DNA of 64,000 nucleotides from Terriglobia bacterium (GTDB lineage: Bacteria > Acidobacteriota > Terriglobia > Bryobacterales > Bryobacteraceae), in the NCBI GenBank assembly GCA_021324615.1, contig JAJPIT010000099.1, positions 1-64,000 of the forward strand, in the 5' to 3' direction. The position numbers and the translations under genes are program-made. Below the pieces are notes generated by a model. The model made no database searches, was not told where the DNA came from, and saw only the letters and a program-made list of their open reading frames with translations. Shown piece after piece: positions 12,540 to 42,632 of the stretch. Numbering within the stretch: the stretch's first letter is position 1; the number at the start of each line of letters is the position of its first letter.

Positions 12540-14195
12540 CTACTGGAAGTACTTTCCGGCGAGCGCCGGGTCGGCGTTGACGGCCTTGCTCCAGACCTGC
12601 CGGGCTTCCTCATCGCGTCCGACCGCCTTCAACGCATGTCCCAGATTCAGCAGGCCTTCGGAGAAGTCGGGTTTTTTCTCCACCGCGAGCTGGAAACATT
12701 CGGCGGCCTGTTTGTTTTCTCCGGCGGCCTGCAACAGCAAACCGAGATTATAGGAAAGCTCCAGGGATTTTTCGCCGAGGGCGGTCAATTTCTGGTGCAG
12801 CTCCCAGGCTTTCTTATGGTCCTTCTTTTCGATGGCGATGGCGGTCAGGGCGCGCAGCGCATCGGTGTTTTTGGGCTGGAGGCTGAGCACACGCCGGAAG
12901 GTTTCCGCCGCCGCGTCGAGATCCTCGAACTTCCAGCAAGCCAGGCCCAGATTCAGCAGCGCTTCCACCCAGTCCTTGCGCTTCTTAAGGCAGGTTTCGA
13001 AGCTGTCGACCGCGCCGGCGTACTCGGCGCGTTGCAGTTGCAGGAAGCCGAGGCGGAAGGCGGCGTCCTCGAAATCGGGTTTGACGGCGACCAGGCGCTC
13101 GAAATATTTTTCCGCTTCCTGCGGTTTTCCTTCGCGCTCGGCGGCCAGGGCCAGGTTCCACAGGGCGCCGGGCAGATCGGGAGAAGCGGCGAGCACCTTT
13201 TCGTATGCGAGCCGGGCGCCGGCGACATCGCCGCGTTCTTGCAGGACCGCGCCGAGGTTGGCCTGCGCTTCGAGGGCGCCGGGACGAAGGCGCGCCGCCT
13301 CGCGGTAGGCGTTGGCGGCCTGTTCCAGGCGGCCGGTTTTCTGATACGCGACGCCGAGATTGAACCAGCCTTCATAGGAATCCGGCGCGGCCTTCACCAG
13401 TTGCGAGCAGTGTTGAACCGCGCTGCTGTAATCGCCGCGCGACAACGCCACCGCGGCCAGCGCCTGCAAGGCCTGGCGCGACTGCGGGCGCAGCTTCAGC
13501 AGCCTTTCGGCGTACTCCTTGATCCGCGCGTCTTCCTTGCGCGCGCTAAACAGGGCGATCAGATTAACCAGCACATCCGCCGGGTTGGACTGCGAGGCGA
13601 GCAGTTTGCGGTATCCCTCGAAGGCGTCGTCCAGCCGGCCGAGCTGGTGGAGCGCGACGGATTTTCCGAACAGCGCCTGCTCGTGCGCCGGGCTTTCCTT
13701 GAGCGCGTTCTGAAAACAATCGAGCGCTTCCGCCGCCTTGCCCAGTTGCAGCAGGCACAGGCCGCGGCCGACCTGCGCCTGCCATCGCTTCGGGTCGATG
13801 GCGAGCGCGGCCTCGAAGGCCTTGGCGGCTTCCTCGAATTTACCCTGCCGCTCCAGGCACAGGCCGCGGTTGTAATGCGCGCTGCGATGCTTGGGGTCGG
13901 CGGCGGCGGCCTTGGCGTAGCAACTGGCGGCTTCCGCCCAGTTCTGCTGCTCGAAACGAAGATGCCCGAGCCCGGTGTAGACTTCGGAAGGACTCTCGCC
14001 GCGCCCGGCCGCGCGCTCCAGCTCGCCGATAGCGTCGGCCAGCTTGCCCTCGGAGGCGAGCTTGACGGCTTTGCCCAGCGACGGCGAAGCCGCGGGCCGC
14101 TTGCTGCGGGCGGGATCGGCGGGCGAATCGCCGCGCATCAGCTTCTCAATCAGCTCGTCATCGACGAAGAAAACGTGTTCGTTATTTTCCGGCAT
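12540..14195 (-). CDS. long TPR-repeat protein
   Basis: This 551-residue protein is built almost wholly of tetratricopeptide repeats, about 14 units from residue 40 on, for example YTGLGHLRFEQQNWAEAASC, YNRGLCLERQGKFEEAAKAF and WFNLGVAYQKTGRLEQAANA. The short N-terminus (MPENNEHVFFVDDELIEKLM) is acidic. There is no signal peptide or membrane segment, so it is probably a cytoplasmic scaffold. AGGAAA precedes the ATG. It lies 14 bases downstream of the zinc-ribbon/TM gene, in the same direction, so they are likely co-transcribed. Residues 174-260 align without gaps to the short TPR protein at 29854-30315, about 39 identities in 87 positions by eye, far closer than TPRs in general. Partners are unknown. 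Confidence 0.9.
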   Translation of the reverse strand: MPENNEHVFFVDDELIEKLMRGDSPADPARSKRPAASPSLGKAVKLASEGKLADAIGELERAAGRGESPSEVYTGLGHLRFEQQNWAEAASCYAKAAAADPKHRSAHYNRGLCLERQGKFEEAAKAFEAALAIDPKRWQAQVGRGLCLLQLGKAAEALDCFQNALKESPAHEQALFGKSVALHQLGRLDDAFEGYRKLLASQSNPADVLVNLIALFSARKEDARIKEYAERLLKLRPQSRQALQALAAVALSRGDYSSAVQHCSQLVKAAPDSYEGWFNLGVAYQKTGRLEQAANAYREAARLRPGALEAQANLGAVLQERGDVAGARLAYEKVLAASPDLPGALWNLALAAEREGKPQEAEKYFERLVAVKPDFEDAAFRLGFLQLQRAEYAGAVDSFETCLKKRKDWVEALLNLGLACWKFEDLDAAAETFRRVLSLQPKNTDALRALTAIAIEKKDHKKAWELHQKLTALGEKSLELSYNLGLLLQAAGENKQAAECFQLAVEKKPDFSEGLLNLGHALKAVGRDEEARQVWSKAVNADPALAGKYFQ

Positions 14196-14209: not shown

Positions 14210-16450
14210 CTATTTCTTGATCACCAGCGGCACGACATTGACCGTTCCCTTGAGCGACATGCGTTCGCCGCGCTCGTTATACAGGCCAATGCCGCCCATC
14301 TTCAGACGATCGTCGGTCCATTCATCGACCTTCTGATCCTGCACGTACGTCGTGAAGCGGTCGCCGACGGCATCGAAGCGGATCTTATATAACGTGTCCA
14401 GATGGACGGGAAGCGCCAGCGGCAACTGCGCGCGCGGCTGCTCCTGGCCGTTGATGACGGCGAAGCGCACCAGGGCGATGGCCGGGTCCAGTCCGGGCTT
14501 GACGATCTCCAGCTTGTTGACGTAATAATTTTTTCCATCCTGCGCGCGATAGACCCAGCCGAGCGCTTTACTTTCGATCTGCGCCTCAAACTGAAGGCGG
14601 TAATCGGTGAGATTGAGGGAAGGCCGCAAGACGGATATTTCGTGCTCGCGGCGCACACCGGGCTCGGCGCCCCAGTCGGTGATCCAGCCCGATTCGACCG
14701 CGCTCAGGGCCGGCCCTTCGACGATTTGCGGGGCGGCGCTTACCGGCCGGGCGGCGCCGCCGCGGGAGACCGCAAACAGGATTACCGCCAGCGCCAGCAC
14801 GCCGCCGGCGGCGATCCCGGCCTTGCCGGCCGCAGGCAGCTTGCTCCAGAAACCGCCGCCGCTGTCGAGCGTGAGGCTGGGCAGGTCGAGGCTGGGCGAA
14901 GGCTGCGCTTTGAACGCGGGCACACTCTCCGGCTCTTTCGCCGGGAGCGGTTCCGGTTCCCGGACCGCGGCGGCGGCAGCTTTGGGCTGCCCGGCTCTTT
15001 CGCGCTGCGGCTCAGGCTCCGGTTTACGGCCCTTGCCATTGCTGAAGCGAGGATCGGGGCGGCCGGGCTGGCGGCGCGGATCGGGCTTGACCATGGTGGC
15101 GCGCTCCACAGCGAGTTTGCGCTCGTCCTTTTCTTGCTTGACTTCTTGCTTGACCGGCTCTTCCGGCGGATCCTTTAGAATTACCTTGGCCGCCGCGGGA
15201 GCCGCGCCCAGGGTCATGACCGAACGAAGCGGCAATGCAGTGGAACGCGGAACCTGCAAACCGAGCTCGCCGGCGACGGGCGACGTAAAAACCTGGACGG
15301 GCTTGCCGCGTCCGGCCGGGAGTCCGTGAAGGGTGACGGGCAGCGGCCGGGAGGGAGCCGCGGGTACGGCTTCGGGAGCCTTGGCGGCGGGCGCAGGCGT
15401 CGGCGCGGCGCTGGCGGCAGGATGGTAGGCGGGCGCCGGCTTGCTCCCCGCGGAATTTACCGGAACGGCGGGCTCGGCCACCACGCGAACCGGCACTGCC
15501 CGCGGAGCCTGCGCCGGCTGCGGCGGGGCGGCTTCAAGGCGCCGCCGCGTGTTAGCGGCTTCCGCCGCCGCGGGGAACGGTTCCGGGACAAGGACGGGTT
15601 CCGCTGGCGGCGCTTGTTCGGAGCGCGGCTCGTCTTCAACAAGCGGCATCAGCCCGCCGCTGTCGTCATCTTCGATACCGGTGGTGCGGAACCTCAGCCG
15701 CGCCAGCGCTCCCAACTCGGGCTGGAACGAAAAATTCCGCTCGCTTTCGCGCCACAACTCCGGCTCGGCCGGCGGCGGCTGAGGAAAAATGATGATGTCC
15801 ATGGGATCCTCGCATCTTTCGGCTATTCCCCTTACCCCGGCCGGGCGCAAATCGAATTCGGCCACGGGTGCAGGGCGAAAAAATTCGCGCAGTTCCAGTT
15901 TTCCTTCTCTGACGCGGGCGGGCGAGTCCGCCACCGCGATGGAACGGAACACGGAGATTCGTCCGGCCGCGGCGGGCTCGCCCGGCCCTGGCACGGTGTC
16001 CCAACAAGGCGCGCTTTGCGGGAGTTTTGGCTCAAACCGCCGCTCGAAAGCCACGTCCGCGGCCACCAGCTCCGCGGTTGCCGCGGCGACCGGGATGGGC
16101 AGTTCGAGAAAGAAGCCGGCCTGGGCGGGAGCCGGCTCCTCTTCCGCGGGCCGCGGCGCCGGTTTGGGCTCGGGTTCAATGGCGCGAGCCGGCGGACGCG
16201 AAACCTGCCTGGCCGGTTCAGGCGCGGTGCTGGATGCTGGAGGACCAGGCTTGCTTTCGGCGGGTGTTTCCGGAACCTTAGCGCCGGCCTTGGGCTTGGG
16301 ATCGAGAGGCTTGGCTTGCAGAAGGCGATTCAGGGCGAGTTGGGTATACTCCTCCTGATACTGCTGGCGATGAGCGTCGGAACAGAATTCCCCGCCGCTG
16401 GTCCAGCGCTTAAGCAGGGCCAGCTCCTTGCCGCAATACAGACACCGCAT
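14210..16450 (-). CDS. zinc-ribbon / Pro-Ala-rich / single-TM / jellyroll-like protein
   Basis: This is a 746-residue protein with an unusual layout. An N-terminal Cys-x2-Cys...Cys-x3-His cluster (Cys3, Cys6, Cys23, His27) looks like a small zinc-binding domain. Residues 50-535 are Pro/Ala/Glu-rich and probably disordered. A single membrane segment spans about 545-562 (GIAAGGVLALAVILFAV). The C-terminal 165 residues are strand-rich (LTDYRLQFEAQIESKALGWV, YYVNKLEIVKPG, MGGIGLYNERGERM) and resemble concanavalin-like/LamG or DUF1080-type jellyrolls. The predicted topology puts the zinc ribbon inside and the jellyroll outside. It is the first gene of a likely pair with the TPR gene. The function is unknown; a transmembrane sensor or scaffold is possible. 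Confidence 0.85.
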   Translation of the reverse strand: MRCLYCGKELALLKRWTSGGEFCSDAHRQQYQEEYTQLALNRLLQAKPLDPKPKAGAKVPETPAESKPGPPASSTAPEPARQVSRPPARAIEPEPKPAPRPAEEEPAPAQAGFFLELPIPVAAATAELVAADVAFERRFEPKLPQSAPCWDTVPGPGEPAAAGRISVFRSIAVADSPARVREGKLELREFFRPAPVAEFDLRPAGVRGIAERCEDPMDIIIFPQPPPAEPELWRESERNFSFQPELGALARLRFRTTGIEDDDSGGLMPLVEDEPRSEQAPPAEPVLVPEPFPAAAEAANTRRRLEAAPPQPAQAPRAVPVRVVAEPAVPVNSAGSKPAPAYHPAASAAPTPAPAAKAPEAVPAAPSRPLPVTLHGLPAGRGKPVQVFTSPVAGELGLQVPRSTALPLRSVMTLGAAPAAAKVILKDPPEEPVKQEVKQEKDERKLAVERATMVKPDPRRQPGRPDPRFSNGKGRKPEPEPQRERAGQPKAAAAAVREPEPLPAKEPESVPAFKAQPSPSLDLPSLTLDSGGGFWSKLPAAGKAGIAAGGVLALAVILFAVSRGGAARPVSAAPQIVEGPALSAVESGWITDWGAEPGVRREHEISVLRPSLNLTDYRLQFEAQIESKALGWVYRAQDGKNYYVNKLEIVKPGLDPAIALVRFAVINGQEQPRAQLPLALPVHLDTLYKIRFDAVGDRFTTYVQDQKVDEWTDDRLKMGGIGLYNERGERMSLKGTVNVVPLVIKK

Positions 16451-16713
16451 GCGCCTATAATCGTCCCTTCCTACCTGATGCTAAAGAGGACTCTTACGGC
16501 TTTCCATGCGGTAAAGCACTTATGTAGCGGAAATCAGAAGTACCACCTACGGCCAGTTCAGCAAAAGCCCTTAGAACAACATGCCTACCTATTCTTACGG
16601 CAATTGCCTGTGAGAGCTGATTAAAGTTATCCGCTTACCGGGACGATCATATGTTTGCTCAAGCGCACGAAGCGGAAACGCGGCGTCAAGCAATCAAAAC
16701 ATGAGGAGGAAGT

Positions 16714-17079
16714 ATGGCGAAAGGTGAAGCGCTCAAGAGTCATATCGAAGCTCTGCGCAGCGCGATTCCGGAATTAAAAGGTGTGCTGCTGGCGTCCAAT
16801 GAAGGACTGCCGATCGCGCACTCCTTATCGAACGGAGCCGATCCGAACCGGATCGCGGCGATGGCGGCGGCGGCGTCGAGCCTGGGGCGGCGCATCAGCG
16901 AGAGCATGAACTCGGGCTCGCTCGGGGAAGTTTCGATCCAGGCCGAAGAGGGCGCGTTGTTTGTGTATTCGGCGGGATCGAAGGCGGTGCTGGCGGTGAT
17001 CAGCCCGCAGGGCGGCAATGCCGGCTTGATCCATCTGGAAGCCCGGGGCACGGCGAAGGACATCGGCGATCTGTTCTAG
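16714..17079 (+). CDS. Roadblock/LC7 (MglB-like) protein
   Basis: This is a 121-residue single-domain protein of the Roadblock/LC7 family: a helix with SHIEALRSAIPELKGVLLAS, strands around NEGLPIAHSL, a central helix NRIAAMAAAASSLGRRIS, then EVSIQAEEGALFVYSA and AVLAVISPQGGNAGLIHLE. Bacterial members such as MglB act as activating partners or scaffolds for small Ras-like GTPases (MglA) in polarity and motility. No MglA-like GTPase gene is in the window, so it is an orphan here. GAGGAGGAAG precedes the ATG. It diverges from the zinc-ribbon/TM gene, and a strong hairpin follows its stop codon. Confidence 0.9.
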   Translation: MAKGEALKSHIEALRSAIPELKGVLLASNEGLPIAHSLSNGADPNRIAAMAAAASSLGRRISESMNSGSLGEVSIQAEEGALFVYSAGSKAVLAVISPQGGNAGLIHLEARGTAKDIGDLF

Positions 17080-35463: not shown

Positions 35464-37629
35464 ATGGCTGCTACATCGCAGATCGCTCCCGTTTCGGCAC
35501 AGCCGCCGAGCCGCCCGCATGCGGCCAACCCTCCGCGCGGGGCCGCGAAAGCTCCCGCGGCTTCGGCTGGCGCGCCGCCGAAGGCCAAAACGGCGTCCCG
35601 ATTTGGCAATCTCGGCGAACTGAGCGTTCCTCTGGCGGTGCTCGGCATCGTCATGGCGATGATCCTGCCGATCCCCTCGTTTCTGCTGGATATCCTGATC
35701 AGCGCCAACATCACCATCTCGGTCATCGTGCTGATGGCTTCGATGTACATCAGCCGGCCGGTCGAATTCAGTGTTTTTCCGACGTCGCTGCTGCTGCTTA
35801 CGCTGTTTCGCCTGGCCCTGAATATCTCTTCCTCGCGTCTGATTCTGATTCACGGAAACTCCGGAACGCGCGCGGCCGGCCAGGTGATCGAGGCTTTCGG
35901 CAACTTTGTGGTCGGCGGCAACTACATCATCGGCGTGGTGATCTTCCTGGTGTTGATCGCGATTCAGTACGTGGTGATCAACCACGGCGCGGTGCGCATT
36001 TCCGAAGTGACCGCGCGCTTCACCCTGGACGCGCTGCCGGGAAAACAGATGTCGATCGATTCCGACCTGAATACCGGGTTAATCGATGAAGCCGAAGCCA
36101 AGACACGCCGGAAAAATCTCGCCGCGGAAGCCGAGTTTTATGGCGCCATGGACGGCGCCAGCCGCTTCACCCAGCGGGACGCCGTCGCCAGCATTTTGAT
36201 CACGGCGATTAACATCATCGCCGGATTCCTGATCGGCGTGTTCCAGCATGGCATGGATCTGCAACGCGCATTGAGTACCTATACCGTTCTGACCATCGGC
36301 GATGGGCTGGTGACGGTCATTCCCGCGCTCATGGTTTCCGTTTCGGGCGGTTTGATCATTACGCGCACCAGTTCGGAAGGAAAGGTCGGATCGGATGTGC
36401 GCAAACAGGTCTTTAGCAATCCTCAGCCGCTGCTGCTATCCGGCGCGGTGCTGGTCGCCATGGCCGCCTTCCCCGGACTGCCTACGATTCCCTTCTTAGT
36501 GCTGGGAGGCGGCGTGGGATATGCGGGATATCAAATTCGCAAGAAGCTCGATGCCCAAGCCGCCGCGCCGGATACGAAACCGCCGGCGCCGAAAGAAAAT
36601 CTGGAATCGCTGCTGAAGGTGGAGCCGCTTGCGGTCGAAGTTGGATTAGGGCTGGTGAAATTGGTGGAAGGCGCACAGAACTCCCCGCTGTTGAAGCGTA
36701 TCGCCGGGATTCGCAAGCAGATGGCTGCCGATCTGGGATACCTGGTGCCGCCGGTGCGCGACACCGATAACCTGCAACTGAAGGCGAACGAGTATGTGGT
36801 TCTGCTGAAGGGCGCCGAGATTAGCCGTTTCGAACTGATGCCCGGATGCAATCGGGCGATCCATCCTGGAACGGGTTCGAACCCCGCCCCGCCGATGGAA
36901 GGCATTCCGGCCAAGGAGCCGGCGTTCGGCATTCAGGCGCTTTGGATCAAGCCCGAAAAATCCGATCTGGCGCGCTCCAACGGATTCACCGTGGTGGATG
37001 CGGTTAGCGTGGTGGGAACGCATCTTGCCGAATTGGTCCGGCGGCACGCCTTTGAGCTGCTGTCGCGCCAGGACACTAAGAATATTCTGGACCGCGTCGC
37101 TCAAGAAAATCCCAAAGTTGTCGAGGATCTGGTGCCGAAATTGCTTCCCATGGCCAGCGTGCAGAAAGTTTTCCAGAATCTGTTGCGCGAGCGAGTTTCA
37201 ATTCGGGACTCGGTCACCATTCTGGAAGCGCTCGGTGAGGCGGCCGCGGTGACCAAGAATCCGATCCTCCTCACCGAGTATGCACGCCAGGCGATTCGCC
37301 GCATGGTGGTTAAGCCGTATTTGAACCCGTCGGGCGAGCTGCCGGCGTTTTTCCTCGATTCGCAGCTTGAACAGACCATCGAAAAATCCATCGAGTACAC
37401 CGAACAGACCAGTCATCTGAATCTTTCGCCGCAGAAGGCGCGCGACATTCTGGAGCGTGTGGCGCGGTCGGCCGGCCCGGCCGATTCCTCCCTCGCCATT
37501 GTCACCAGCTCCGCGGCGCGCTACTTTTTGCGGCAAATCGTGGAGGGTTCGCTGCCGAATGTCTCCATTCTTTCTCATAACGAAATTCCGGCCGGCGTTC
37601 GCGTCGTGTCGCTGGGGCTGATTCAATGA
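35464..37629 (+). CDS. flhA: flagellar type III export gate protein FlhA
   Basis: FlhA is the inner-membrane gate of the flagellar export apparatus; its C-terminal cytoplasmic ring docks chaperone-substrate complexes. The 721 residues start with a Pro/Ala-rich tail of about 45 residues, longer than usual, then eight predicted membrane segments (from LAVLGIVMAMILPIPSFLLD to PLLLSGAVLVAMAAFPG). The conserved FHIPEP-type region between segments reads ARFTLDALPGKQMSID and AEAEFYGAMDGASRFT. The cytoplasmic domain runs from about residue 375 to the end. The stop overlaps the flhF start (ATGA). It heads a flagellar operon with flhF, fliA and fliN. Confidence 0.96.
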   Translation: MAATSQIAPVSAQPPSRPHAANPPRGAAKAPAASAGAPPKAKTASRFGNLGELSVPLAVLGIVMAMILPIPSFLLDILISANITISVIVLMASMYISRPVEFSVFPTSLLLLTLFRLALNISSSRLILIHGNSGTRAAGQVIEAFGNFVVGGNYIIGVVIFLVLIAIQYVVINHGAVRISEVTARFTLDALPGKQMSIDSDLNTGLIDEAEAKTRRKNLAAEAEFYGAMDGASRFTQRDAVASILITAINIIAGFLIGVFQHGMDLQRALSTYTVLTIGDGLVTVIPALMVSVSGGLIITRTSSEGKVGSDVRKQVFSNPQPLLLSGAVLVAMAAFPGLPTIPFLVLGGGVGYAGYQIRKKLDAQAAAPDTKPPAPKENLESLLKVEPLAVEVGLGLVKLVEGAQNSPLLKRIAGIRKQMAADLGYLVPPVRDTDNLQLKANEYVVLLKGAEISRFELMPGCNRAIHPGTGSNPAPPMEGIPAKEPAFGIQALWIKPEKSDLARSNGFTVVDAVSVVGTHLAELVRRHAFELLSRQDTKNILDRVAQENPKVVEDLVPKLLPMASVQKVFQNLLRERVSIRDSVTILEALGEAAAVTKNPILLTEYARQAIRRMVVKPYLNPSGELPAFFLDSQLEQTIEKSIEYTEQTSHLNLSPQKARDILERVARSAGPADSSLAIVTSSAARYFLRQIVEGSLPNVSILSHNEIPAGVRVVSLGLIQ

Positions 37630-38675
37630 AGCTGAAAAGTTATTTCTCGGGATCCGTGGAAGCGGCCATGGAACTGGCGCGCAAGGAACTGGGCGAGGAC
37701 GCGCTGCTGGTGCATGCCCGCCCGGCGACGCCGGAGACCAGGCATCTGGGAGCTTATGAAGTCGTCTTCGGCTGCCACCCGCCGCTGAATCCGCATCCGG
37801 CCGCCGCGCCGGGGCCGGAAGCGGCTGGACCCGATCACCTGCGCCGGGATCTGGCGGAAATGAAGCGCGAAATCGAGCGCCTTTCCAAATGCCTCTCCGG
37901 TGCGCGCCTGTTCGCCGAGCCGGCCCGGGAAGAATCGGAGCTGTGCGCGCGGCTGATGGCCAACGAGCTGGATCCGATGATCGCGCAGGCGGTGGCGCGC
38001 GGCGCTTCGCTCGGCGAATTTTTCGAAGTCGACGCCACTCTGGGACGGCGCGGCGCAAATCGGGCCGTGGTCGCGCTGGTGGGGCCTCCGGGAGCCGGCA
38101 AGACCACCACGCTGGTGAAGCTGGCTGCGCGTTACGGGCTCGCCTCGCGCAAACCGGCGCAGATTCTTTCCGCGGACGTGTTTCGCATCGCCGCCGCCGA
38201 TCAGCTTCGCTCGCTCGCCGCGATTCTCGGCATCGGCTGCGATGTGGTCGAAACGCCGGTCGCGCTGGCCCAGGCGATTGAAGAGCATCGCCACAAGGAC
38301 TTCGTTTTCATCGACACGCCGGGGCTGGGTCGCGATGACATGGAAGACGGAGCGGACCTGGCGCGCCTGATCGCGTCGCATCCCGAGGTCGATACCCATC
38401 TGGTGCTGCCCGCCTCCATGAAGCCCGCCGATATGGCGCGGGTGATCGAGCGCTACGAAATTTTCCAGCCGAAGAAGTTTTTGTTCACACGCATCGACGA
38501 AACCGCCAGCTTCGGAGCGATCCTCAATGAAGCCTCGCGCCGGGAACGTCCTATTTCGTTTCTGGCAACAGGACAACAGATTCCCGACGATCTGGAAGCG
38601 GCGGCCAAGGAAAAAATCTGCGGGCTCATTGCGGGTCCGGCCATCTCCACACGAAGCGCGGGAGCAGCGGCATGA
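37626..38675 (+). CDS. flhF: flagellar SRP-like GTPase FlhF
   Basis: FlhF is an SRP/FtsY-type GTPase that sets the site and number of flagella, usually at the pole. The 349 residues start with the family-typical MKLKSYFSGSVEAAMELARK and LGEDALLVHAR, then the NG domain: P-loop GPPGAGKTTTLVKLAARYG, ILSADVFRIAAADQLRSLA, and the DTPG box in FIDTPGLGRDDM. The guanine-specificity region near 280 (FLFTRIDETASFG) is intact. It overlaps flhA by ATGA and fliA by ATGA. No flhG (minD-like) gene follows directly, unlike many operons where FlhG regulates FlhF. Confidence 0.94.
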   Translation: MKLKSYFSGSVEAAMELARKELGEDALLVHARPATPETRHLGAYEVVFGCHPPLNPHPAAAPGPEAAGPDHLRRDLAEMKREIERLSKCLSGARLFAEPAREESELCARLMANELDPMIAQAVARGASLGEFFEVDATLGRRGANRAVVALVGPPGAGKTTTLVKLAARYGLASRKPAQILSADVFRIAAADQLRSLAAILGIGCDVVETPVALAQAIEEHRHKDFVFIDTPGLGRDDMEDGADLARLIASHPEVDTHLVLPASMKPADMARVIERYEIFQPKKFLFTRIDETASFGAILNEASRRERPISFLATGQQIPDDLEAAAKEKICGLIAGPAISTRSAGAAA

Positions 38676-39478
38676 AAGGCGCGACAAAAATGGAAACCAG
38701 CGCGAAGCCGCAGGCGGCCGCGCCCGGCCGGATCGGCGCCTACGGGCCACCCCCGCTCAGCGCCCAGGAGCGCGAGGAGCTGATCCTGGAGCATCTGCCG
38801 CAGGTGCGGCTGATCGCACGGCGGATTCACGAACGCCTGCCGGAAAGCGTCCATCTGGAGGATCTGATCTCCACCGGCATCGTCGGGCTGATCGCCGCCA
38901 TCGACCGCTTCGATCCCTCGCAGAACGTGAAGCTCAAGACGTACGCGGAATACAAGATCCGGGGCGCGATTCTGGACAGCCTGCGCGGCCTGGATTGGGC
39001 GCCGCGCCAGCAGCGCAAGCGCGCCAAGCAGATCGAAGCAGCCATCGCCGCCGCCGAGCAAAAGCTGCACCGCGCGCCGACCGAAGAGGAGATCGCCCGG
39101 GAACTGGGCCAGACAATCGAGGAATATCACGCCTGGCTGGTCGATTCGCGCGGCCTTACGCTGGGCAGCCTGGAAACGTCGGGAAGCGACGAAGAGGGCC
39201 GCGACTTATTGAAATATGTCGCCGGCGACGAGGAGTCCTGGCCCTCGCGCATCGTGGAGCGGAGCGAACTCCAGAAACTGCTGGCCTCGGCCATCGCCAA
39301 AATGCCGGACATCGAAAAGACCGTGTTGAGCCTGTACTATCACGAGGAGCTGACCCTGCGCGGAATCTCGAAAATCGTCAACCTGCACGAATCCCGTATC
39401 TCCCAACTGAAGACGCAGGCGATCCTGCGCCTGCGCGCGTTCATGGAAAAATCCTGGCCCGGCCCACGCGGAGCGTAA
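38672..39478 (+). CDS. fliA: flagellar sigma factor FliA (sigma-28)
   Basis: FliA directs RNA polymerase to late flagellar promoters. The 268 residues contain sigma region 2 (LILEHLPQVRLIARRIHERL, DLISTGIVGLIAAIDRFD, KTYAEYKIRGAILDSLRGLD), region 3 (HRAPTEEEIARELGQT) and region 4 with a helix-turn-helix (LYYHEELTLRGISKIVNLHE and RISQLKTQAILRLR). The length and the direct 2-3-4 layout fit the FliA/WhiG class rather than extracytoplasmic sigma factors. It is co-translated with flhF. A TAAA-N15-GCCG motif lies upstream of flhA, so FliA may promote its own operon. A second in-frame ATG at 38690 is a possible alternative start. Confidence 0.94.
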   Translation: MKGATKMETSAKPQAAAPGRIGAYGPPPLSAQEREELILEHLPQVRLIARRIHERLPESVHLEDLISTGIVGLIAAIDRFDPSQNVKLKTYAEYKIRGAILDSLRGLDWAPRQQRKRAKQIEAAIAAAEQKLHRAPTEEEIARELGQTIEEYHAWLVDSRGLTLGSLETSGSDEEGRDLLKYVAGDEESWPSRIVERSELQKLLASAIAKMPDIEKTVLSLYYHEELTLRGISKIVNLHESRISQLKTQAILRLRAFMEKSWPGPRGA

Positions 39479-39479
39479 C

Positions 39480-40244
39480 TTGAACGACGCTACTTTGAAC
39501 CGCCTGCTGAACGAGCTCGGATCCCATCTCGCCTCTGCCTTCGAAGGCATGACCGGCGAGCGCCCGCAGATCTCCACCACGGCCTCCACTGTCGAGCCGC
39601 CGGCGGGCGCGCTGCTGCGGCGCGAACGGTTTTCCGGAGTGCCCGGCGCCATCTGGATCGCAGCCGCTGAGCCGGATTGGCTCGCCGGCGGAGCCCTGGT
39701 GCTGGAGGCGGCGGGAATCACCGGGAGCGATCCTGAAAAACACAAGGCGGAATTTCAGGAAGTCGTTCAACAAGCCCTCTCCGGCGTGGCCCGGTCCATG
39801 TCACAATGGCTCGGGCGCGAGGTCCGGCGCGAGCCGGGCGAAGAAACGCCGCCCGCCGCGGCCGCCTGGAACGCGATCGAAGTGCGCCAGGGCCAAGCGC
39901 GCCTCCGCCTGCTGGCGGCAATCGAGCCGGAATTGGCGGCGGCCTTCGCACCACCCGCGCCGGCCCCGGAGGACCCCGAGAAACCGCCCACCTTCGGTCT
40001 TCTGCTCGATGTGGAGCTGCCGCTTCGCATCTCGTTCGGACGCGCGGAGGTGCCGCTCAAGGATGTCCTCAAGCTGACCACCGGCTCGATCGTGGAGCTG
40101 AACCGCGAGATCGGCGATCCGGTGGAGGTGATCGTCAACAACTGCGTGATCGCGCGCGGCGAGGTGGTTACGCTCGAAGGAAATTTCGGCGTGCGGATCC
40201 AGGAAGTGATCAGCCGCCACCAGCGTTGGAAGACGCTCGGCTGA
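39480..40244 (+). CDS. fliN: FliN-type flagellar switch protein with long N-terminal domain
   Basis: This is a 254-residue protein with a C-terminal SpoA (FliN/FliM-C) domain at about 175-250 (FGLLLDVELPLRISFGRAEV, LKLTTGSIVELNREIGDPVE, VIVNNCVIARGEVVTL, NFGVRIQEVIS). The SpoA domain forms the lower C-ring of the flagellar motor switch. The N-terminal 170 residues are unusually long for FliN (about 100-140 in total in enteric bacteria) and look mixed alpha/beta, perhaps a degenerate CheC-like or FliM-middle-like domain; FliY of Bacillus offers a precedent. TTG 39480 is the likely start, just after the fliA stop. It is probably translated from the same message. Confidence 0.88.
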   Translation: MNDATLNRLLNELGSHLASAFEGMTGERPQISTTASTVEPPAGALLRRERFSGVPGAIWIAAAEPDWLAGGALVLEAAGITGSDPEKHKAEFQEVVQQALSGVARSMSQWLGREVRREPGEETPPAAAAWNAIEVRQGQARLRLLAAIEPELAAAFAPPAPAPEDPEKPPTFGLLLDVELPLRISFGRAEVPLKDVLKLTTGSIVELNREIGDPVEVIVNNCVIARGEVVTLEGNFGVRIQEVISRHQRWKTLG

Positions 40245-40628: not shown

Positions 40629-40732
40629 CTCCCTTGCGAAACCGCTTCGCCGCCCTCGAACTCCAGAATGCCAGGTACCATTACCTCCTAATCGCGAAGT
40701 ACCTTGCTGTGTTTGGCGGCGCGTCCCAGACT

Positions 40733-40738
40733 TATAAG
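40733..40738 (+). promoter_or_regulatory. candidate -10 element before the kinase-like/receiver gene
   Basis: TATAAG (5/6 match to TATAAT) ends 7 bases before the ATG at 40746. It supports that ATG rather than the in-frame TTG at 40704. Confidence 0.35.
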
Positions 40739-40745
40739 CGGAAAG

Positions 40746-42632
40746 ATGGAGCGCACCGACTTCGAACAGTGGAAAGCAAAGGAGGTGGCGCGGCTGCTGG
40801 CCCTGGTCGAAACCGAGCGCCGCTACTACCAGGAGATCGTCGCGTCGCTGCCGGTGGCGCTGGCCGTGCTCAGCTCGGACCGTTCGATCCTGTCGGCGAA
40901 TCGCAGCTTCCGGCAGACGTTTGGCCTCCGCGGCGAGGATATGCGCCGCAAAACGATTGAGCAGATTCTGCCGTCGCCGGAGTTGGTGGAATGCATTCGC
41001 CAGGCGCATCTGCGCTCCGGCGGCCCATCCTCGGCTTTCCTCCAGATCGAAGGCCGCCGTTTCCGCGCCGCCGCCGTGCCCATTCGAAATTGGGACGAAG
41101 AGGGCGATCTGGAAACGCTGCTGATGATCGAGGAGGCGGCCGGCGGCGAACTCCCTCATCCGCAGGCCTCCGCCGCACCTCCCGCTGCCCCTTTGGAGAT
41201 TCCGGCGGTGATCTGGAAGGCGGATCCGCGCACTTTCGCGTTCACTTCCGTCGCCGGCGCGGCGGAAGAACTGCTCGGCTATCCGGCCGCGCACTGGATC
41301 TCCACACCTCAGTTTTTCCGCGAACGAATCCATCCGGAAGACCGCGCCGCAACCATGGCATTTTACGAAGCCGCCGTCGGCCGCCCGGGGGACTTCAGCG
41401 CCGAGTTTCGCGCCGTCGCCGCCAGCGGCGCCGTCCTCTGGTGCCGGGAAACGATCCGCAGCAGCGATCGCGGATGGAGCGGCGTGCTCATCGATATCGG
41501 CTCCCGCAAGCAACTGGAGCGCGAAATAGTGGCGGCCGAGCGCACCGAGGCCTTGCGGGCCGCCGCCAGCCGCCTGGCGCACGATCTCAACAATCCGCTG
41601 ATGATCATCACCGGCTATGGCGAAGAGCTGTTGCAATCGCTGCCCGCAAACGAGCCCGCGCGCGCTGACGTCGCGCAGATCCTGACCGCGACAGAACGGA
41701 TCTCCGGCATCGCCGCGCAACTGCTCAATTACACCCGCCGCGCCGCCGGGCCGGCCAAGCCGGTGGAGCTGAACGCGCTGCTGGCGCGGCTCGAAGAAAA
41801 GATTCCAGGCCATGACCGCGTCTCGGTCGAAATCGCTCCGGCGGGCGAAGCGGTCTGGGCCCTGGCCGACGCCGCTCAGCTCGAAGAGATTCTACAGGCC
41901 CTGGCTTCGCCGGCGCGGGAGGAAGCCCGGGAGCGCTCGCGCTTGTCCATTTCCTGCGGGGTTCACACCCTCGCCGAGCACGTTCCAGGCGCTCCGCTGG
42001 CCCCCGGCGCCTATGCCCGGATCACCATTGTTGACAATGGCCGCGGAACCGATTCCCCCAGCGGCGTCTTCGAAGCGGCGGTGCTCGGCAAGGACCCCAG
42101 CGCCAGCCGCGCTTACGCCATCATCCGCGAGTGGGGCGGCGACCTGGTGTTTTCCAGCGAGCCGTTCCGCGGCTCGACGTTCACGATTTATCTCCCTCTG
42201 AGCCGGCCGGAACCCGCCTCGGCCGCGGTCGCGCCGCCCGAGCCGCCGACGCCCGAGCCGCCGCGCATGCCCACCATTCTGCTGGTAGAGGACGAGCCCG
42301 GCATTCGCGCCCTGGTCCGCAAGATCCTTCGGCGCGAGCACTATGCCGTGCTGGAAGCGGCCAGCGGGGAAGAGGCCCTCCATGTCGCCGCCGCGCAACA
42401 GGACCGGATCGACCTGCTGGTGACCGATGTGATTCTACCCGGCATCACCGGCCGCGAGCTGGCCGAGAAACTGCGCGTATCGCTGCCGGAGTTGAAGGTG
42501 CTCTACGTTTCCGGCTTTACCTCCGACGAGTCGGTGCGCGCCGGAGCCTTCCCGCCCGGGGCGAAGTTCCTGCAAAAGCCGTTCACCCTCAGCGCGCTGG
42601 TCGGTAAAGTCCGGGAGGCCCTGGCGGATTGA
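40746..42632 (+). CDS. PAS / histidine-kinase-like / receiver protein with degenerate ATP site
   Basis: This 628-residue cytoplasmic protein has two PAS-like regions (about 20-110, VASLPVALAVLSSDRSILSA; about 150-260, WCRETIRSSDRGWSG), a dimerisation helix with phospho-acceptor-like His279 in RLAHDLNNPLMIITGYG, an HATPase-like domain (about 330-480) and a receiver domain (about 500-628) with Asp561 in LLVTDVILPG, Ser in LYVSGFTS and Lys in FLQKPF. The ATPase domain is abnormal: the N-box Asn is Pro389 (LASPAREE), the G2 glycine box is replaced by DPSASRAYAI, while the G1 box Asp430 (DNGRG) remains. Catalysis therefore looks lost or altered. It follows the flagellar genes by 117 bases in the same direction. 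Confidence 0.85.
   Translation: MERTDFEQWKAKEVARLLALVETERRYYQEIVASLPVALAVLSSDRSILSANRSFRQTFGLRGEDMRRKTIEQILPSPELVECIRQAHLRSGGPSSAFLQIEGRRFRAAAVPIRNWDEEGDLETLLMIEEAAGGELPHPQASAAPPAAPLEIPAVIWKADPRTFAFTSVAGAAEELLGYPAAHWISTPQFFRERIHPEDRAATMAFYEAAVGRPGDFSAEFRAVAASGAVLWCRETIRSSDRGWSGVLIDIGSRKQLEREIVAAERTEALRAAASRLAHDLNNPLMIITGYGEELLQSLPANEPARADVAQILTATERISGIAAQLLNYTRRAAGPAKPVELNALLARLEEKIPGHDRVSVEIAPAGEAVWALADAAQLEEILQALASPAREEARERSRLSISCGVHTLAEHVPGAPLAPGAYARITIVDNGRGTDSPSGVFEAAVLGKDPSASRAYAIIREWGGDLVFSSEPFRGSTFTIYLPLSRPEPASAAVAPPEPPTPEPPRMPTILLVEDEPGIRALVRKILRREHYAVLEAASGEEALHVAAAQQDRIDLLVTDVILPGITGRELAEKLRVSLPELKVLYVSGFTSDESVRAGAFPPGAKFLQKPFTLSALVGKVREALAD

Follow-up and report, generated by a model that had tools for sequence, protein, structure and literature searches.

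A conserved three-gene cassette of the Bryobacteraceae places a Roadblock protein with no adjoining GTPase under a putative motility-type promoter

Roadblock proteins elsewhere control a small GTPase in cell motility, as does MglB, the Roadblock-type GAP of MglA in Myxococcus and Thermus. The gliding machine of Myxococcus includes GltJ/AgmX, in which a cytoplasmic zinc domain, a long linker, one membrane helix, and a periplasmic part are combined with a tie to Roadblock, the recognizable domains being a zinc ribbon, GYF, and a TonB-like domain. Roadblock proteins in general are described as GTPase regulators (PMC9481161), and a 2014 survey describes conservons in which CvnB is grouped with a histidine kinase and a GTPase (PMC4316618). 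In that survey, MglA was missing from the neighborhood of 328 among 749 MglB homologues, and not one of these orphans had been characterized as of 2014 (PMC4316618). The Roadblock protein MglC is reported to bind a helix of RomR through a Trp (PMC12719032).

We analyzed a 64,000-nucleotide stretch of DNA, called the window throughout, from a 3.94-Mb assembly that is 99% complete. The genome belongs to the Bryobacteraceae, a family of soil bacteria in the Acidobacteriota, and carries what is, judged from sequence comparison, a three-gene cassette conserved in one bacterial family, encoding a Roadblock protein without an adjoining GTPase apparently under a motility-type promoter. The open reading frames reported in an earlier note, made from the letters of the window alone, are all present. 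A 746-residue protein (positions 14210 to 16450, minus strand) combines a zinc finger, a disordered linker, a membrane helix, and a CBM66-like domain, as assigned from the ORF list, alignment, and predicted structure. It is followed after 14 nt on the same strand by a 551-residue TPR protein (12540 to 14195, minus strand), assigned from Pfam TPR families and a 12-orthologue alignment, and faces a divergent 121-residue orphan Roadblock/LC7 protein (16714 to 17079, plus strand) across a 263-nt gap. The latter matches PF03259 at 58.4 bits (cut-off 23), which places it in the Roadblock/LC7 superfamily, and PF03259 matches once in the genome, making this its sole Roadblock gene. No published account of the cassette was found among the openly licensed papers searched.

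A scan with the window Roadblock protein, which detects close relatives only, covered 84,980 species, each represented by a single genome. It returned 16 loci, of which 15 are acidobacterial by sequence, one of these being labeled Bordetella, and 1 is from Marinobacter. A zinc-finger gene starts divergently beside the Roadblock gene in all 15 acidobacterial loci, and a TPR match comes next in 13; the TPR gene is clipped by the end of the stretch in L035 and L036, and the stretches of L040 and L046 stop within the zinc-finger gene or shortly past it. Genes outside the cassette differ between relatives, RecG being the following gene in just one of the 15 loci, that of the closest relative (L034). 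In a survey of 61 genomes of the family, overlapping the scan by at least two loci (L043 is G024 and L044 is G032), the Roadblock gene was found in 13. Twelve of these Roadblock proteins are at least 56% identical to that of the window, and that of G007 is 32% identical. The divergent zinc-finger gene is present in 10 of the 13; among the remaining three, just 44 nt separate the Roadblock gene of G009 from a contig end, G026 lacks the divergent gene, and G007, with no match to the zinc-finger protein, has an MglA-like GTPase instead. The zinc-finger frame of G043 is short, with no TPR frame after it. Roadblock is a common gene in the phylum at large (151 of 247 genomes), where the zinc finger was found in 4 of 247 genomes, two of these matches being weak and outside the family; the phage records searched gave no Roadblock match, and all linked copies found come from one bacterial family or order. 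Comparison of gene order, proposed as a check when the locus was first described, shows the three genes to be a conserved unit among relatives, and we hold it very likely that they form one unit.

Several observations accompany this survey. L043 (CALQCC020000014.1) is labeled Bordetella parapertussis yet carries the cassette, with a Roadblock identity of 78%, and is probably a mislabeled MAG. A sigma-54 activator gene lies just past the TPR gene in L037, L043, L044, and L048, and the window has none. In another acidobacterial lineage, L085 (positions 1471 to 2614) has a 121-residue Roadblock gene followed by a gene for an ODP-family metallo-beta-lactamase fold, and L082 looks alike.

The Roadblock protein is the most conserved protein of the cassette (87% mean column identity in 16 sequences). 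It has the PF03259 domain in common with MglB and scores 18.4 bits with the Thermus-type MglB model NF052242 (cut-off 200); it differs from MglB in its zinc-finger and TPR partners, its length of 121 residues, and an MglA that neither adjoins it nor was found in the genome. Its best solved relatives by sequence are 7f8m (E 2.8e-13), 9jue, and CvnB5 (3leq; E 8.5e-8), and CvnB-type and archaeal Roadblock proteins are thus its closest solved sequence relatives; unlike CvnB, it does not sit in a GTPase/histidine-kinase conservon. Matches to the Arf family (PF00025) in the window genome fell only in frames of 1015 and 485 residues, which are too long to be MglA, and a profile of three Roadblock-adjacent GTPases had no match there. 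The same profile left 10 of the 12 genomes with a cassette-type Roadblock unmatched, giving weak matches in G043 (31 bits) and in a 692-residue frame of G028 (25 bits). The genome search for an MglA-like GTPase that had been recommended therefore found none in the window genome. The earlier suggestion of a scaffold separate from the canonical MglA/MglB pair found no support, since the window genome has no detectable MglA and, among the 13 Roadblock genomes, only G007 pairs Roadblock with an MglA-like GTPase. An unlinked Ras-family protein is encoded elsewhere in 3 of the 12 cassette genomes (G034, G042, and G043; 86 to 103 bits); consequently, it is the lack of a linked GTPase that holds for the ten genomes with a zinc-finger neighbor, and it is for the window genome and 9 of the 12 that a Ras-type GTPase was not found. 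Genomes without Roadblock, such as G033 and G038, have short Ras-like frames too. The Ras-family genes L073 (G043), L075 (G034), and L077 (G042) encode small GTPases and lie away from any Roadblock gene. We consider it likely that the window genome lacks a dedicated MglA-type GTPase.

The finger of the 746-residue protein (residues 1 to 50; 16301 to 16450, minus strand), located from alignments and the model, is by far its best conserved part, the 15 orthologues averaging 29% column identity over the full length. The Cys3/Cys6/Cys23/His27 cluster recognized in the earlier note is borne out, all four residues being invariant in the window protein and 14 linked relatives; a set of 22 N termini has the same ligands, having been picked by a pattern that required them, and the linked copy of G004 has Cys as its fourth ligand. 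Among FCS-type and treble-clef profiles, the best family members match zf-FCS_1 (E 0.016) and DUF2116 (E 0.02) weakly, the window's own finger matched no profile family, and the whole protein matched no family in Pfam or NCBIfam at E up to 1. The disorder, single membrane segment, and strand-rich C terminus read from the sequence were recovered in a full-length model, in which residues 52 to 533 are disordered except for short stretches (mostly pLDDT below 50), residues 540 to 563 form a membrane helix that hydropathy also predicts (14762 to 14833, minus strand), and the C terminus is nearly all strand. Structure prediction of the C-terminal domain (residues 581 to 746; 14213 to 14710, minus strand; mean pLDDT 82.7), another proposed check, yielded a CBM66-like lectin fold in the model. 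Its best structural matches are CBM66 domains (Foldseek E 1.8e-7), it aligns with CBM66 of Bacillus subtilis levanase at Z 17.1 and rmsd 2.5 over 144 residues with 22% identity, and its sequence match to CBM66 is weak (E 3.6e-4). The fold is shared with the levanase domain, but the window domain is tethered behind the membrane helix of a zinc-finger protein.

The C-terminal domain is multicopy in the family; a whole-protein query matches 47 of 61 genomes, and most among the matches listed fall in this domain. The membrane segment and jellyroll first described for the window protein are present in it, and neither was found in L039, L040, and L041, where hydropathy revealed no strongly hydrophobic segment; no CBM66-like domain was seen in these three or in L036, and L047 has finger and domain on two separate frames. 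Given that the membrane segment and lectin domain are missing from some orthologues, the common core comprises the zinc finger, linker, TPR protein, and Roadblock protein. The window protein shares with GltJ/AgmX a zinc domain that is presumably cytoplasmic, a long linker, a single predicted membrane helix, a presumably periplasmic part, and a link to Roadblock, but it has no Pfam domain and its outer domain is CBM66-like rather than TonB-like; the zinc-ribbon, GYF, and TonB-like profiles of GltJ/AgmX were likewise absent from its Pfam and NCBIfam results at E up to 1.

The TPR protein (62% mean column identity in 12 orthologues) begins with an acidic motif, FFVDDELIEKL in the window (residues 9 to 19; 14139 to 14171, minus strand), which is a candidate Roadblock-binding motif. 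The core, [VIY][DE][DEGNS]xx[LIV]xxL, starts 19 of 19 Roadblock-linked TPR proteins and 0 of 22 unlinked ones; as this pattern, which omits the aromatic pair, was fitted to all 19 linked sequences, the informative half of the comparison is the 0 of 22. An aromatic pair precedes the core in 17 of the 19 linked proteins. The TPR starts of L035 and L036 lack it and fail a pattern that includes the pair, which had been widened on 17 linked sequences and matches 17 of 17 by construction. L056, L169, L170, L179, and L183 were dropped before the tree and motif counts as weak or as a duplicate of L007, and in gathering the set, repeat entries for one and the same place and TPR frames shorter than 350 residues were also left out. 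Of 39 TPR proteins placed in a tree, 20, all of them unlinked paralogues, group in a single clade (99/98), and the Roadblock-linked label needs two changes, as few being obtained in 0 of 500 shuffles. Linked and unlinked operon types coexist in G000, G032, G042, and G058. Two unlinked copies fall outside the clade, that of G021 with an eroded TPR motif and the zinc His changed to Asp, and that of G047 with finger and motif both gone; neither genome has a Roadblock match, G021 being only 87% complete. The unlinked paralogues keep their zinc fingers without Roadblock, so that the finger need not bind Roadblock and may have another partner. In L058, L193, and L194, the Roadblock-free zinc-finger–TPR operon lies directly after a CarD gene, and L050 of the window genome has a different ORF there. 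If the TPR motif binds Roadblock, the two would work much as MglC and RomR do in Myxococcus, where an aromatic helix is held by a Roadblock protein. That pair is by analogy the nearest precedent, except that MglC acts beside MglB and MglA.

Sigma-28 promoters have a TAAAG −35 element and CGAT in the −10 element at a matching spacing. On the Roadblock side of the intergenic gap, TAAAGTT-N14/15-CGAT occurs in 14 of 16 gaps, where single-base shuffling predicts 0.001 and the opposite strand gives 0, so this consensus, spacing included, is found in 14 of 16; the window copy is TAAAGTT-N15-CGAT (16622 to 16647, plus strand). On the zinc-finger side, TTTAG-N16/17-CGAT occurs in 14 of 16 gaps (0.03 expected), the window having TTTAG-N17-CGAT (16460 to 16485, minus strand) 9 nt before the ATG. 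Across gaps, this promoter-like element lies only 9 to 11 nt ahead of the ATG, and the zinc-finger transcript may therefore be leaderless. Seven of eight further Roadblock loci have a TAAAG-type site, namely 5 in a set of 6 (0.024 expected) together with L068 and L069; L063 lacks one, and L061 is cut. L069, the G026 copy with no zinc-finger neighbor, has the site, which indicates that the site goes with Roadblock, and none of the unlinked zinc-finger genes looked at has a TAAAGTT-type promoter. On this pattern of conservation, there is a good chance that the Roadblock gene has a sigma-28-type promoter. The CGATAA tail found at the flagellin gene of the family is present at 1 of 15 cassette sites; CGATAA itself lies upstream of flagellin at 12 of 22 usable family loci (0.73 expected), including the window genome, where a crude promoter matrix scan left the flagellin upstream region at background and the plain CGATAA count found the site.

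A candidate reader of the promoter is a FliA/WhiG-type sigma factor in the window (38672 to 39478, plus strand; TIGR02479 239 bits, cut-off 189.6), encoded after FlhA and between an FlhF-like gene (TIGR03499 143 bits, below the cut-off of 174) and FliN. A second FliA/WhiG-type sigma factor in the window genome scores 230.7 bits. The flagellar cluster of FlhA, FlhF-like, FliA-type sigma, and FliN genes occupies 35464 to 40244, and a hybrid histidine kinase gene follows at 40704 to 42632. A genome-wide regulon search with TAAAGTTN{14,15}CGAT gave one match, the Roadblock site, as against one match of the reversed control, and a looser pattern matched twice in the window against 0.66 expected, looser patterns there being near chance. 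Flagella and FliA were uninformative as correlates of the cassette, with flagellin in 56 of 61 family genomes and a FliA match above the cut-off in 58 of 61. The 10-nt palindrome GGCAATTGCC (16599 to 16608) is perfect, as the earlier note had it, but the operator role offered for it found no support, the palindrome being one of 107 in the window (1.7 per kb, a chance level) and missing from the closest relative, L034. Midway in the gap (16451 to 16713), most of the 16 relatives have a further conserved block, GGTAAAG..CTTAT, flanked by the two promoter elements.

We propose that the cassette probably specifies a Roadblock scaffold within a sigma-28-type regulon, serving motility or the envelope; both the binding and the function are inferred. 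The scaffold would need no dedicated GTPase of the MglA type to operate. A Roadblock dimer, expected from the fold, would bind the acidic and usually aromatic N-terminal motif of the cytoplasmic TPR protein, as their co-occurrence suggests, and the zinc-finger protein would join through its finger and disordered linker. In the window genome, though not in all relatives, the zinc-finger protein may anchor the complex in the inner membrane with its lectin-like domain presumably outside. The Roadblock gene would be read from the sigma-28-type promoter, whose conservation is observed and whose reader is putative, and the cassette would most likely organize or regulate a motility-linked structure of the cell envelope. 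The original idea of a polarity or motility scaffold gains plausibility from this promoter in its motility part only, and motility as the output is roughly an even bet. To the mechanism as a whole, an MglA-free Roadblock scaffold of three genes with a sigma-28-type promoter and a motility-linked envelope structure, we assign a probability of roughly 0.38. A further reading, in which the Roadblock protein shed its GTPase and became a hub that reads the acidic-aromatic TPR motif, holds the zinc-finger protein (which in many species carries a lectin domain across the inner membrane), and is made with the motility program, seems to us unlikely. Confidence in both was slightly lowered by the linked TPR starts without an aromatic pair and by the Ras-like proteins.

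Alternatively, the cassette may serve an envelope, surface-glycan, or developmental role rather than motility, the zinc-finger and TPR proteins being an envelope module general to the family, with paralogues that lack Roadblock, and the second FliA/WhiG-type sigma factor reading the version that has it. Matches to the zinc-finger protein, mostly to the lectin-like domain, in 47 of 61 genomes against 13 with Roadblock, the single clade of 20 unlinked TPR paralogues, the 230.7-bit score of that second sigma factor, and the lack of a flagellin-type tail at most cassette sites all point this way; the promoter, however, was seen with the Roadblock-linked version alone and at none of the unlinked zinc-finger genes looked at, and we regard this alternative as somewhat unlikely. 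It is also conceivable, if rather improbable, that the Roadblock protein still regulates an unlinked GTPase, of the Ras family in some genomes and, in the window genome, FlhF or some other GTPase of a translation or flagellum type. Such a role would be in keeping with Roadblock proteins generally, as described in PMC9481161, and candidates exist in the Ras-family proteins of G034, G042, and G043 and in the window's FlhF-like GTPase, with its 143 bits below the cut-off of 174. However, no short Ras- or MglA-type frame was found in the window genome or in 9 of the 12 cassette genomes, and the short Ras-like frames of G033 and G038 occur in genomes without Roadblock.

That the three genes are adjacent by common descent only and do no joint work is, in our view, very improbable. 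The linked copies all come from one family or order, and gene order can outlast function; yet neighbors outside the cassette differ, both divergent promoter elements are conserved, and the TPR motif tracks Roadblock linkage.

In sum, this analysis adds to the earlier note a conserved sigma-28 (FliA/WhiG)-type promoter, a FliA-type sigma factor among the flagellar genes of the window, and an acidic TPR motif shared by the Roadblock-linked TPR proteins and missing from the unlinked ones. The cassette ties one orphan Roadblock protein to fixed partners and supplies candidates for its binding motif and its sigma factor, which together make the role of a Roadblock protein without a linked GTPase directly testable. 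Should the hub reading prove true, the cassette would constitute a polarity or motility module that is built on Roadblock and does without MglA, with all sightings to date in the Bryobacterales.
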